Shown here one piece after another: positions 772 to 6,859 of a stretch of DNA of 37,812 nucleotides. Source of the DNA: a virus; IMG/VR virus record IMGVR_UViG_3300007960_003683, positions 1-37,812 of that record; one strand, given 5' to 3'. The translations under genes were made by a program, and so were the position numbers. The notes under the pieces are model-generated. The model was not told the DNA's origin and did no database searches. It saw only the letters and a program-made list of their open reading frames with translations. Each line of letters opens with the position of its first letter. The stretch's first letter is position 1.

Positions 772-1213
772 GTTAGGCATCGACAATACACCACAGGGTG
801 AACATATGGAGAACCTTAAATATGTGGTGGAAAAAATTTGTCAGCCTGTAAGAGAAGCGTTTGGCAAACCAGTTCGTATTAACAGTGGATATAGATCTCC
901 AGCGTTAAATAAAGCAGTGGGAGGTTCTAAAACATCTCAACACTGTAACGGACAAGCTGTTGATATGGAAATTGATGGAGTACCAAATAAGGTACTTGCA
1001 GATTGGATCACAGAAAATTGTGATTTTGATCAAGTTATTTTAGAATTTTATAATCCAGCAGAGGGAGCAAACTCAGGCTGGGTACACGCTTCTGTTAGAA
1101 GTGATGGACAGAACAGAGGCAAAAAATTAATTGCCTTTAAGGATGGTAAAAAAACAAGATATGAATTTGTCGAAGATTTTGATAAAGGAAATGAATACGA
1201 AGATTATATTTAA
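713..1213 (+). CDS. M15-family zinc peptidase, endolysin-like
   Basis: This 166-residue protein matches the peptidase M15A / D-Ala-D-Ala carboxypeptidase-like fold. Zinc ligands are visible: His77 in SQHCNGQAVDME, Asp84 in the same motif, and His125 in GWVHAS. The upstream RINSGYRSPALN block is also typical. Such enzymes cleave peptide crosslinks of peptidoglycan, and in phages they serve as endolysins or virion-associated lysins. No signal peptide is visible, so a holin or another export route would be needed for lysis. The start ATG lies inside the upstream ClpP-like gene. A tiny membrane protein follows at once, an arrangement seen in lysis cassettes. Confidence 0.88.
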   Translation: MQLSANFQLKEFTRSQTASRLGIDNTPQGEHMENLKYVVEKICQPVREAFGKPVRINSGYRSPALNKAVGGSKTSQHCNGQAVDMEIDGVPNKVLADWITENCDFDQVILEFYNPAEGANSGWVHASVRSDGQNRGKKLIAFKDGKKTRYEFVEDFDKGNEYEDYI

Positions 1214-1319
1214 TATTTTTGACTATGTGTTAGGAGGAGCTGCTGCTCTTGTAACATTGTGGGCCTTATATAGAATGGGTTTAGAATTATGGTGCATTGC
1301 ATACGGATTAATTTATTAG
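1191..1319 (+). CDS. Tiny single-span membrane protein, possible lysis accessory
   Basis: The ATG at 1191 gives a 42-residue protein with one hydrophobic stretch (roughly residues 11-27, FDYVLGGAAALVTLWAL) and an aromatic C-terminus. A longer in-frame start at 1131 would lie deep inside the peptidase gene and is less likely. AAGGA directly precedes the ATG but is closer than usual for a ribosome site. It overlaps the M15 peptidase end by 23 bases and the TonB-receptor-like start by 31. Size, one membrane span and position after an endolysin-like gene fit a holin-type or lysis-accessory role, but no family is recognised. It could also simply be the translational bridge to the next gene. Confidence 0.45.
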   Translation: MNTKIIFNIFDYVLGGAAALVTLWALYRMGLELWCIAYGLIY

Positions 1320-2761
1320 CATTAATTTTATTATTTAACACTCCTGCTTTTGCAGAAGAACTTGTTGAGATTGTAGTAACTAGTGCACCAACAACAGAAC
1401 TAGAAGCAAATCCTGAACTAGATTTAACAATAGCAGAAATGCTTGATCCTAGCCAATCATTTACACAAGGTGGTTACGGAGGTTTTTCAGGTTATCGTGA
1501 ACGTGGACAACAAACTATTCACTCTCAAATATACCGCAATGGTATTCCTGTAAACGACTCTGGAACTGGTTGGTATGATTTTGCTCATGACATACCAACT
1601 GGTTCTGAAAAGATAAAAGTAATACACGGAGCAAACTCAACCATATATGGATCTGGATCTCTTGCAGGTACAGTATTCATTGAAGACACATTCGATAATA
1701 GATCAGTATTACGTTATGGAACCAACAGTACTCTACTACATGTATCTCACGAACTAGGAGTTTCACTTACAGCATTTAATGCTAAAAATGATTCCGTAAG
1801 ATCAGATAACGAAGAAAAAGACAGATACGAAAATTATACCTTTCGTGGAAAGTATAATAACTTTAATCTAGTATACACTGACTATTCATATGACTATGAC
1901 AAATGCTATCAGCCTACTATAATGACATTGTTTTCTAATGATTGTAAACAAAAAGGAGAACGAGGTACACTATCATATAATAACGATAATGTAACTTTAG
2001 GTTATAGTTTTAATAATGCTGACTTTCCAAATGAAGGCAATGGGTATACAAGTAAGTCCCAAAGATTTTATGGTGACGCTAGAAATTATTATGGGGATCT
2101 ATTATATGGTGCCACAGTAAATGCTGAAAAATTTAATGATAAAACAGATGAGCGCGTAGAAGTTTATGCTGAGTATAGAGGATATTCATTTAGAACAGAT
2201 GGTAGTAATACAGCTTTTAGGGCAGGGTTCATGCCTTTGTCATCTATAGACATTGCTATTGGATCATCATATAGAGACCCAACATTATACGAACAATATG
2301 GAGATGCATACGTTTTGTCAAACAATAATTTAGATTCTGAAAAATCCTTTGGTATAGATATTTCATTAGGACCTGTAACAGGTTTCGCTTATAAATTTAA
2401 AGAGGGCATCTCATATAATTTTGAGAACAATCAATTTCAAAACACTGGCGAATATTCTACAAGTGGTGTAAGATTCCAAAATAATTATACTTTAGATGAT
2501 GTAAACTTATCTGTCTTTGGAGGTTATACAGATAGTGATCAACCATTTGTATCTCCATGGAAGGGTAGTGTAACTGCACAGTGGAAAGATTTTACTACTC
2601 AGATAAACAGTAATCAATGGGCAACTACAATAGATTTCAGCTACGAAAAAGATGGGATGTTCTTTTCAATAACTAATATCACCGATGAGGAATATGAGAT
2701 TCAACGTGGTTATCCCCTTGGTGGTATCGAATACCATATAGGTTTTAATGTAAGTTATTGA
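1289..2761 (+). CDS. TonB-dependent outer-membrane receptor-like protein
   Basis: The 490-residue product has a signal peptide (about residues 1-22, cut after AFA), then a TonB-box-like segment LVEIVVTSAP. A plug domain follows, with RERGQQ, IYRNGIPVND, EKIKVIHGANSTIYGSGSLAG and a VFIED ending, matching the plug consensus of BtuB/FepA-type receptors. The rest is rich in alternating aromatic and polar residues, as in beta strands, with SYRDPTLYEQYG, a NITDEEYEIQRGYPLGG block near the end, and a terminal aromatic Tyr, the usual BAM recognition feature. Such receptors import siderophores, cobalamin or other metal complexes across the outer membrane using TonB energy. At 490 residues it is clearly shorter than usual (around 600 or more), so the barrel may have fewer strands. 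Substrate is unknown. Coding by a T4-like phage is the surprise. Confidence 0.82.
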   Translation: MVHCIRINLLALILLFNTPAFAEELVEIVVTSAPTTELEANPELDLTIAEMLDPSQSFTQGGYGGFSGYRERGQQTIHSQIYRNGIPVNDSGTGWYDFAHDIPTGSEKIKVIHGANSTIYGSGSLAGTVFIEDTFDNRSVLRYGTNSTLLHVSHELGVSLTAFNAKNDSVRSDNEEKDRYENYTFRGKYNNFNLVYTDYSYDYDKCYQPTIMTLFSNDCKQKGERGTLSYNNDNVTLGYSFNNADFPNEGNGYTSKSQRFYGDARNYYGDLLYGATVNAEKFNDKTDERVEVYAEYRGYSFRTDGSNTAFRAGFMPLSSIDIAIGSSYRDPTLYEQYGDAYVLSNNNLDSEKSFGIDISLGPVTGFAYKFKEGISYNFENNQFQNTGEYSTSGVRFQNNYTLDDVNLSVFGGYTDSDQPFVSPWKGSVTAQWKDFTTQINSNQWATTIDFSYEKDGMFFSITNITDEEYEIQRGYPLGGIEYHIGFNVSY

Positions 2762-2837: not shown

Positions 2838-3221
2838 ATGAAAAAACTTTTAATTGCAGTAGCAGCAACAGCCCTTTTGTCTACCCCAGCACATGCTGAT
2901 ACAAAAGATGTAATTGGTGGTGTAATTGGTGGCTTGATTCTTGGTGAGATTATTGATAACAGCTCTCATCGACATAGAAATCATAGGCACGAATACTATA
3001 ATAACCACTATAGTTATCACAACCATTATCATTACAATCGCAATGTTCCCAATGCACACATCACAATCATTGAGAACAATCGAGTGTATGAGCTCAACAG
3101 ACACGGAGCTCCAGTGTACAATCCAAACACCCCTGGAATGGGATTTGGATACTGTGACACACGATATCGTGGTTATGACGGCTGTCAGCGAGCCAGGATT
3201 GAGGCTTGGAAACGTAGATAA
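2838..3221 (+). CDS. His/Tyr-rich exported protein with glycine zipper
   Basis: The 127-residue product begins with a clear signal peptide (about 1-20, cut after AHA). A hydrophobic glycine-zipper segment follows (IGGVIGGLILGEII, about 26-39). Then comes a stretch of about 30 residues dominated by His, Tyr and Asn (about 43-72), and a C-terminal part with two Cys (CDTRYRGYDGC). Export to the periplasm or envelope is well supported. The His-rich stretch could bind divalent metal, which is inference. It has its own promoter and a good ribosome site (AAGGAG). It follows a TonB-receptor-like gene and precedes the CobT/CobS-like pair. Glycine-zipper proteins often associate with membranes; an envelope-stress or surface role is an alternative. 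No specific family is recognised. Confidence 0.8.
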   Translation: MKKLLIAVAATALLSTPAHADTKDVIGGVIGGLILGEIIDNSSHRHRNHRHEYYNNHYSYHNHYHYNRNVPNAHITIIENNRVYELNRHGAPVYNPNTPGMGFGYCDTRYRGYDGCQRARIEAWKRR

Positions 3222-5665: not shown

Positions 5666-6859
5666 ATGACTAAAACTACCCAAGTGCAAAAAGAAGAGCT
5701 CATCAACACTCTTAAAAATATTTCAGTTGATGGACGATTCCTATCGCGACAAGATATTATTGATACTGCGGCTGATTTGGGACACCCCTTCCCGCACTGG
5801 CTCTTAAAGGATCCAACAGCAAAGGTACAGCGAGGCAAGTATAGCGTCGCGATGTACCAAGGCAACGCTAATGTGGTGCCAATGACTCCTAAGCAGCCGG
5901 TGATGGTTGTAGAGTCCGAAGCTGCCAAGGTTGTAACCCAGGCTAAACTTAACGTGGATATTGAAAACCTAATTCCTGCCAAAGACGATACTTTTGTACC
6001 CTTTGGCTTTTACCGAGACTTGAAGAAGGTACTTCAGTCCGGTATGTTTTATCCGATTTTTATCAGTGGTTTGTCCGGTAACGGTAAGACTACAATGGTA
6101 GAACAGGTATGTGCGAACCTCAACCGAGAGGCTATTCGTGTAAACATTAGTATTGAGACCGATGAGGACGATTTGATCGGTGGCAATACCCTAGTTGACG
6201 GTAACGTCGTGTATCGAGAAGGACCGGTCCTCACCGCCATGAAACGTGGCGCGGTTCTCATTCTTGATGAAGTAGACCGCGGGTCCAACAAGTTGATGTG
6301 TCTCCAGGCCATCCTTGAAGGCAAAGCGTACTTCAACAAGAAAACAGGCGAAACCGTTACTCCTGCTCCCGGCTTTACAGTGGTTGCCACTGCTAATACA
6401 AAGGGCCGAGGATCAGATGATGGCAAGTTCATTAGCGCTCAGCTACTGGACGAGGCATTCCTGGAGCGATTCGCCGTTACGGTGGAGCAGGAGTATCCTA
6501 CAGCAGCCACTGAGAAGAAGATCATTCTTAACAAGATGGCTAAGGCAAACTGCACAGACGAAGAGTTTGCCACTAACCTTGTCACATGGTCCGAAGTCAT
6601 CCGTAAGACATTTTACGAAGGCGCCATTGACGAGTTGGTTAGCACCCGCCGACTAGAACACATTGTGAATGCTTTTGCAATGTTCGGTGATAAGCTCAAG
6701 GCTATTGAGCTCTGTGTTAACCGTTTTGATACCGACACTAAACAAGCATTCATTGACTTGTATAGTAAGGTAGACGCTGGAGTTGACCTCACCAACAACA
6801 GCGTCAACGACGAGTTCAGTGAAGATGAGGAAGAAGGATTTGATGACTCCTCTTTCTAA
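5666..6859 (+). CDS. cobS: CobS/MoxR-like AAA+ ATPase
   Basis: The 397-residue protein is an AAA+ ATPase of the MoxR/CobS group. Walker A GLSGNGKT is at 135-142, Walker B VLILDEVD at 197-204, a sensor-type VVATANTKGRG segment follows, and the C-terminus is very acidic (DEFSEDEEEGFDD). Marine T4-like phages often carry such a gene, annotated cobS after the ATPase subunit of aerobic cobaltochelatase. In bacteria CobS works with the VWA protein CobT and CobN to insert cobalt during B12 synthesis. Here only the ATPase and VWA partner are present, so a general MoxR-VWA remodelling role is equally possible. It starts after GTGAGG. The gene is GC-rich for this window. The next gene starts inside its last codons. 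Confidence 0.9.
   Translation: MTKTTQVQKEELINTLKNISVDGRFLSRQDIIDTAADLGHPFPHWLLKDPTAKVQRGKYSVAMYQGNANVVPMTPKQPVMVVESEAAKVVTQAKLNVDIENLIPAKDDTFVPFGFYRDLKKVLQSGMFYPIFISGLSGNGKTTMVEQVCANLNREAIRVNISIETDEDDLIGGNTLVDGNVVYREGPVLTAMKRGAVLILDEVDRGSNKLMCLQAILEGKAYFNKKTGETVTPAPGFTVVATANTKGRGSDDGKFISAQLLDEAFLERFAVTVEQEYPTAATEKKIILNKMAKANCTDEEFATNLVTWSEVIRKTFYEGAIDELVSTRRLEHIVNAFAMFGDKLKAIELCVNRFDTDTKQAFIDLYSKVDAGVDLTNNSVNDEFSEDEEEGFDDSSF

Follow-up and report, generated by a model that had tools for sequence, protein, structure and literature searches.

The window analysed here is a stretch of viral DNA of 37,812 nucleotides (IMG/VR record IMGVR_UViG_3300007960_003683). An open reading frame on its plus strand starts with ATG and runs uninterrupted for 490 codons, and its product was identified as a TonB-dependent outer-membrane receptor (TBDT). 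The receptor gene, its protein features and the small reading frame that overlaps its start are as follows.

1191-1319 (+): 42-aa single-span membrane ORF, the second part of ORF 1131-1319, flanked by the M15 peptidase gene and by the receptor, whose start it overlaps
1289-2761 (+): TonB-dependent outer-membrane receptor, BtuB-like, 490 aa, from the ORF, a Plug match and an AlphaFold2 model with its fold match
1289-1354 (+): signal peptide, residues 1-22 (MVHCIRINLLALILLFNTPAFA), by direct reading of a hydrophobic core and a site between AFA and EE
1361-1384 (+): TonB box, residues 25-32 (LVEIVVTS), by family conservation; aligns with DTLVVTA of E. coli BtuB
1376-1672 (+): plug domain, residues 30-128, by PF07715 match
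1466-1486 (+): plug apex 1, residues 60-66 (QGGYGGF), mean entropy 0.63 bits, joint lowest in the protein
1538-1600 (+): plug apex 2, residues 84-104 (NGIPVNDSGTGWYDFAHDIPT), with the family signature GWYDFAHD, mean entropy 0.63 bits
1700-2758 (+): predicted 22-strand beta-barrel, residues 138-490, by AlphaFold2 model and VIA-align to BtuB 2gsk_A
1790-1828 (+): extracellular loop L2, residues 168-180 (DSVRSDNEEKDRY), in which D173, N174, E176 and D178 are invariant
1883-1957 (+): extracellular loop L3, residues 199-223, with invariant D202, D204, C206, C219 and Q221

By direct reading, the receptor N-terminus (MVHCIRINLLALILLFNTPAFA followed by EE) resembled a Sec signal, AxA site included, and the C-terminus was ...NVSY. 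The TonB box was among the best-conserved N-terminal elements of the phage receptor family described below (E26 in 36 of 39 sequences, E27 in 38 and V30 in 37, with I/V28 also conserved). PF07715 (Plug) matched the window receptor at 39.9 bits, compared to a gathering score of 23.9 (E = 6.8e-10), and was present in all 39 family representatives. The TonB box, plug and C-terminal Tyr that an initial annotation had read from the sequence were thus confirmed, and the signal peptide it had named is plausible. The two L3 cysteines, Cys206 and Cys219, could form a disulfide. At 490 aa the protein is shorter than E. coli BtuB (614 aa), and its phage relatives are mostly 490-570 aa long.

When AlphaFold2 was run on the window receptor with the 39-member family alignment, the model (pLDDT 79.5, pTM 0.80) displayed a plug enclosed by 22 barrel strands, counted manually with the hairpin 374-385 treated as an extracellular loop, with short turns on one side of the barrel and longer loops on the other. 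This is the plug and closed barrel that the initial annotation had expected from a structure prediction. Its idea of a minimal barrel held for length and failed for strand number, 22 being the full count; because a short protein is nevertheless modelled with all its strands, the barrel appears to have been trimmed without losing any. Foldseek against the PDB returned only B12 transporters (the BtuB proteins of E. coli and Bacteroides) in its first 17 rows, and VIA-align did so in its first 15 (Z 32.3 down to 28.5), the best match being BtuB 2gsk_A (Z 32.3, 457 residues, 3.0 Å). HasR was the first non-B12 receptor (Z 28.2); with ChuA and ShuA, also haem receptors, it made up the next structural neighbours. 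The small size of BtuB among solved TBDTs may contribute in part to its rank, a concern limited by the finding that Bacteroides BtuBs of 621-633 residues outranked the equal-sized Cir, ShuA and ZnuD. Taken together, the plug, modelled barrel and TonB box identify the receptor as a TBDT, with TonB-energised transport as its putative activity.

The window DNA polymerase was T4-type and 50% identical to cyanophage gp43, and PHROG matches in the window included the polymerase, a DnaB-type helicase and a ClpP-like protease, with UvsX and helicase homologues present in relatives of the contig. Plug, barrel model, TonB box and phage genes together bear out the earlier proposal that a T4-like phage encodes a TBDT. 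The same locus recurred in two independent viral contigs with the gene order of the window, IMGVR 3300010299_001894 (L002; receptor 100% identical) and IMGVR 3300031977_001417 (L007; 77% protein identity), so the window contig is not chimeric at the receptor and the assembly artefact considered at the outset did not materialise.

A first scan of IMG/VR viral contigs found 29 receptor relatives. Rescanning with an alignment of 17 members raised this to at least 167, and the 80 best were retained; the gene also occurs on contigs of 217 and 251 kb. The receptor therefore belongs to a large phage family that extends beyond the window phage, and its carriers are marine T4-like and jumbo-like phages in which the importer is conserved and shortened. 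Searching 50,697 named phage records at E 0.01 gave no match, and the motifs of the phage receptor family were absent from 84,980 bacterial and archaeal genomes. With the 39-member profile (A2), 398 Pseudomonadota genomes gave only one match at E 1e-20, a distant receptor of 87 bits; genuine phage family members score about 600-800 bits on the family profile. In a tree the phage receptors formed one fully supported clade on a long stem, the placement of which is unsure because long branches meet there. In two large phages (L312 and L315) the receptor open frame was about 660-700 aa and matched in two pieces, and some branches may therefore have longer loops. Separately, phrog_5687 (760 aa, function unassigned) weakly matched receptor residues 82-220 (2e-4) and may represent another unrecognised phage TBDT family.

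We then considered which branch of TBDTs the family comes from. A single-sequence PDB search with the window receptor gave no match, and the family profile was needed. In the PDB this profile placed BtuB first (E = 7e-22), far ahead of PhuR as the next receptor (8.6e-5), and in an E. coli genome BtuB (1.4e-16) likewise led the next TBDT (1.6e-3). The comparison with BtuB proposed in the initial annotation yielded a near full-length match, both by hhalign to K-12 BtuB (probability 98.5, nearly the whole protein covered) and by the VIA-align match above, and blastp of other family members against BtuB reached 2e-16 over 605 columns. The NCBIfam model TonB-B12 (TIGR01779) matched the window receptor at 7.5e-7 with 28.1 bits, compared to an equivalog cut-off of 599.7, and TonB-hemin was the next NCBIfam match (5.9e-4); no match of the window receptor to NF007926 / PRK10641 was reported. 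For all ten of the nearest cellular receptors scanned, the best NCBIfam match was a B12-receptor model. BtuB was thus the best-matching branch by profile, by fold and by ranking within a genome, suggesting that the nearest known relatives of the phage receptor are cobalamin receptors and that its ligand is a corrinoid. Of the several roles that the initial annotation had listed, the evidence favours the cobalamin option. Because the equivalog cut-off is missed and a riboswitch is absent, the receptor is not filed as BtuB; the claim is that it works like BtuB.

A cobalamin-class riboswitch adjoined the gene in 16 of the 18 highest profile-ranked cellular receptor loci, the E. coli reference left out. 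Among TBDTs with the best Plug scores, which served as a first control, 12 of 20 loci had one (Fisher p 0.07). Since this Plug-ranked control was itself rich in riboswitches, a second was drawn from other TBDTs down the Plug list, in which the proportion fell to 5 of 20 (Fisher p 9e-5). The riboswitch evidence is supportive and not decisive, because canonical short TBDTs often have a riboswitch, as the first control shows. The window and the loci of eight phage relatives yielded no cobalamin riboswitch.

Pairwise dN/dS was 0.10-0.23 where synonymous change was unsaturated, indicating purifying selection. Column entropy was lowest in the two plug apices, followed by L3 (0.71 bits) and L2 (0.95 bits), and was 1.78 bits in the barrel strands and 2.16 bits in L5. 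In BtuB the corrinoid rests on both plug apices and loops L2-L5 have a key part in binding it, while five aspartates next to the pocket form a cage for two calcium ions (PMC7360065). Invariant acidic residues occur in L2 and L3 of the phage family (D173, E176, D178, D202 and D204), D218 is mostly kept, and His100 at plug apex 2 is invariant. We take the BtuB cage to sit in loops L2 and L3; a calcium site in the phage receptor is a proposal only, as its equivalence to the BtuB aspartates differs between alignments. Such low entropy at the plug apices, L2 and L3 would be expected of a conserved small-molecule pocket, and a surface under attack should show the reverse. It speaks against the decoy or arms-race role entertained earlier, since these surface parts were the most conserved and not the most variable.

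Compared with known receptors, the phage protein shares with E. coli BtuB (2gsk, 1nqh; NP_418401.1) the plug and 22-strand barrel, the TonB box, the signal peptide and the concentration of acidic residues in L2 and L3. It differs in being only 18-22% identical, about 120 residues shorter, phage-encoded and without a riboswitch, and in its signatures GWYDFAHD, YDYDxC and Cys206/Cys219. The best cellular profile match in the 398 genomes, a TBDT of genome G425 (locus L174; 118 bits for the whole protein), has a cobalamin riboswitch upstream and contains a YDNC...NDC segment that is also present in phage loop L3; unlike the phage receptor, it is 613 aa long and groups with other bacterial receptors in the tree.

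The gene neighbourhood was examined in the window and across the family. In the window, L002 and L007 the order is a ClpP-like gene, an M15 peptidase gene, a small membrane ORF and the receptor, and downstream in these contigs lie genes for a His-rich exported protein, a VWA/peptidase protein and a CobS-like AAA protein. The initial annotation had suggested looking for such clpP-like and cobS neighbours in other marine phages; they were found only in these two closest contigs and not family-wide. The frames of the ClpP-like protease (phrog_1827; 136-771, +) and the M15-type endolysin (phrog_894; 713-1213, +) overlap. The 42-aa membrane ORF that follows (1191-1319, +) is holin-like in size and position, and its overlap with the receptor start could allow translational coupling. 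The exported protein, of 127-130 aa (window 2838-3221, +; L007 9592-9984), combines a His/Tyr-rich run (HRHRNHRHEYYNNHYSYHNHYHYN) with a stretch resembling a glycine zipper and is preceded by a T4-late-type TATAAATA at 2811; it had no family match and possibly binds metal. The CobS-like AAA protein at 5666-6859 (+) matches phrog_249 ('porphyrin biosynthesis') and adjoins a 735-aa phrog_459 protein ('peptidase'). Its cobalamin label is doubtful because the CobS match scored 78 bits compared to a cut-off of 559, and the cobS and VWA neighbours were rejected as B12 genes on this ground and on that of an adjacency limited to the closest relatives. In G001, a 165-kb relative with core genes mostly 52-84% identical, the receptor (70% identical) lies about 50 kb from cobS.

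Elsewhere the receptor is associated with uvsW. In one marine clade it lay immediately 5' of uvsW in 59 of the 65 loci fetched via uvsW with enough upstream sequence, and in a wider set in 6 of 56; in some receptor-free sister loci the AAA gene adjoins uvsW, forming a natural empty site. In one subgroup the receptor abuts or overlaps the preceding gene and is separated from uvsW by 4-5 nt. A perfect TTGACA-N16/17-TATAAT was present 52-78 nt 5' of the receptor in four members and an 11-of-12 match in a fifth, compared to 0.15 matches (at least 11 of 12) expected by chance among 39. Such a consensus sigma-70 promoter fits expression together with the replication genes by host RNA polymerase. The uvsW synteny, short gap and promoter point to expression during replication and not at lysis. 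No clear promoter was found upstream of the window receptor, and no T4-late-type TATAAATA was found upstream of the receptor gene. In a second phage lineage, with UvsW closest to PA5oct-type phages, the receptor again lies between the AAA gene and uvsW. It is 37% identical to that of the window despite a distant UvsX (26%), and the gene has therefore probably moved between phage lineages. At L058 6342-6722 and seven other loci, a phage AcpS gene (holo-ACP synthase, TIGR00516 above cut-off) was observed 5' of the AAA gene and receptor.

Several candidate links between the receptor and phage B12 metabolism were examined and rejected. Ribonucleotide reductases found in the relatives tested were class I, a type that needs no B12. 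Genes for B12-binding radical-SAM proteins occurred in 5 of 30 receptor-bearing contigs, with the architecture confirmed in three and a fourth that scanned weakly; as they also occurred in two of eight receptor-free relatives, their frequency was about equal with and without the receptor and the link is non-specific. Proteins with B12-binding and radical-SAM domains were observed on large marine phage contigs (L222 1375-3231, L223 1-2184, L224 31-1899, L225 1405-2910 and L419-L422), and searching named phage records with the L222 protein brought up one distant match. At L009 11539-12639 and comparable loci, metK, adenine phosphoribosyltransferase (apt) and MTA/SAH nucleosidase genes stand in a row 3' of uvsW and make up a phage cassette for SAM recycling. 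Its link to the receptor is at clade level only, as metK was not more frequent alongside the receptor (23 of 46 loci of the near clade with it and two of five without it). A phage-encoded TonB was found in none of 12 contigs, and energisation by the host is assumed for that reason.

We propose, with a probability of about 0.6, that the receptor is a phage-encoded, TonB-coupled corrinoid importer of BtuB-branch descent that now forms a phage-restricted family. Computation shows that the protein is a TBDT of phage origin, how far its family extends, which relatives are nearest, that selection is purifying, how conservation is distributed, and what operon or promoter context relatives have; the ligand, transport, timing and benefit are our inference. 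The receptor would be exported through host Sec and BAM and inserted into the host outer membrane during infection, where vitamin B12 or a related corrinoid would be bound in a pocket formed by both plug apices and loops L2/L3. Host TonB-ExbB-ExbD would act on the conserved TonB box and open the receptor, so that the corrinoid supply of the infected cell would be raised or maintained. A likely beneficiary would be B12-dependent host metabolism, for example methionine/SAM synthesis. The gene is maintained by selection in phage genomes and has cellular relatives of metabolic function, as a phage auxiliary metabolic gene would.

It is possible but unlikely that the receptor imports another scarce ligand, haem in the first place and then a metal complex, and that its likeness to BtuB reflects ancestry only. 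Haem receptors use a plug histidine, and His100 is invariant at plug apex 2. HasR, ChuA and ShuA were the next structural neighbours by VIA-align, PhuR was the next profile match and TonB-hemin the next NCBIfam match, and a His-rich exported protein (2838-3221) follows the receptor in the window. Against this, the gap between BtuB and the next receptor was wide both by profile (7e-22 versus 8.6e-5) and within the E. coli genome, and cobalamin riboswitches lay beside most of the nearest cellular genes. The His-rich neighbour was restricted to the window, L002 and L007 and was not conserved elsewhere.

Exclusion or replacement is another idea to which we give little weight. The phage receptor would make BtuB- or TonB-dependent entry unusable for competitor phages or bacteriocins, either through competition for TonB or through a swap to a receptor version that competitors fail to recognise. 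BtuB is a known phage receptor (PMC8624392), and other TBDTs are too. Competition for TonB would follow from an intact TonB box, loops are shorter than in BtuB, and the gene seems to spread between phage lineages. However, surfaces in an arms race should diversify, yet the apices, L2 and L3 were the most conserved parts and dN/dS was low; furthermore, a conserved ligand pocket would be superfluous for pure competition over TonB. The receptor may combine uptake with resistance to entry.

A part in lysis or virion release in the window phage would account for the position of the gene beside the M15 endolysin gene and small membrane ORF in the window, L002 and L007, but we consider it very improbable, since most relatives have the receptor in the recombination/replication region between the AAA gene and uvsW, the T4-late-type TATAAATA is missing upstream, and lysis would need neither a conserved TonB box nor a ligand pocket. 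A host gene captured by chance or an assembly artefact, without phage function, is conceivable as TBDTs are widespread in marine bacteria (PMC3400609), but is refuted for the family as a whole by at least 167 viral relatives, fixed synteny, purifying selection and the lack of a close cellular copy.

TBDTs of phages have been mentioned before. The marine megaphage Mar_Mega_1 carries a SusC-like TBDT for which carbohydrate uptake was proposed (PMC9723777); it is likewise phage-encoded and belongs to a different subfamily. Among BFVD viral models the only fold match at E < 0.001 was A0A8D9FQQ5 of an uncultured marine phage ('TonB-dependent receptor SusC'), which aligned with a TM-score of only 0.42 and differs from the window receptor in length (805 aa) and in being of SusC type. 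A TonB-dependent receptor protein annotated in the marine phage Polarivirus skadi was taken by its authors as a hint to the entry receptor (PMC10504331); that phage is HTVC010P-type with the TBDT among structural genes, whereas the window receptor matches no named phage record. Our literature search, with most subscription journals outside it, found no account of a phage-encoded BtuB-like family. The family thus appears to be undescribed and, being below the BtuB equivalog cut-off, is called a new BtuB-like TBDT variant. This cautions against taking a phage-encoded TBDT as a pointer to the phage's own entry receptor, the reading given for Polarivirus skadi.

Most known phage metabolic genes encode enzymes that act inside the cell. 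An outer-membrane receptor, if our reading is true, would mean that a virus alters what the infected cell takes from sea water. Few marine microbes make B12, and large ocean regions are poor in it (PMC13079714). TBDTs are also doors for other phages and bacteriocins. For the marine phage clade, we would give even odds that a compact, phage-specific B12 receptor has become near-core, is expressed with the replication genes and rebuilds corrinoid uptake; it may also free the cell from entry via host BtuB. A near-core TBDT and the empty sites in sister phages make the benefit testable, under scarce B12 on the one hand and against BtuB-entering competitors on the other. Collectively, these data suggest that, if the proposal is true, phages would upgrade or replace host uptake of a scarce cofactor during infection.
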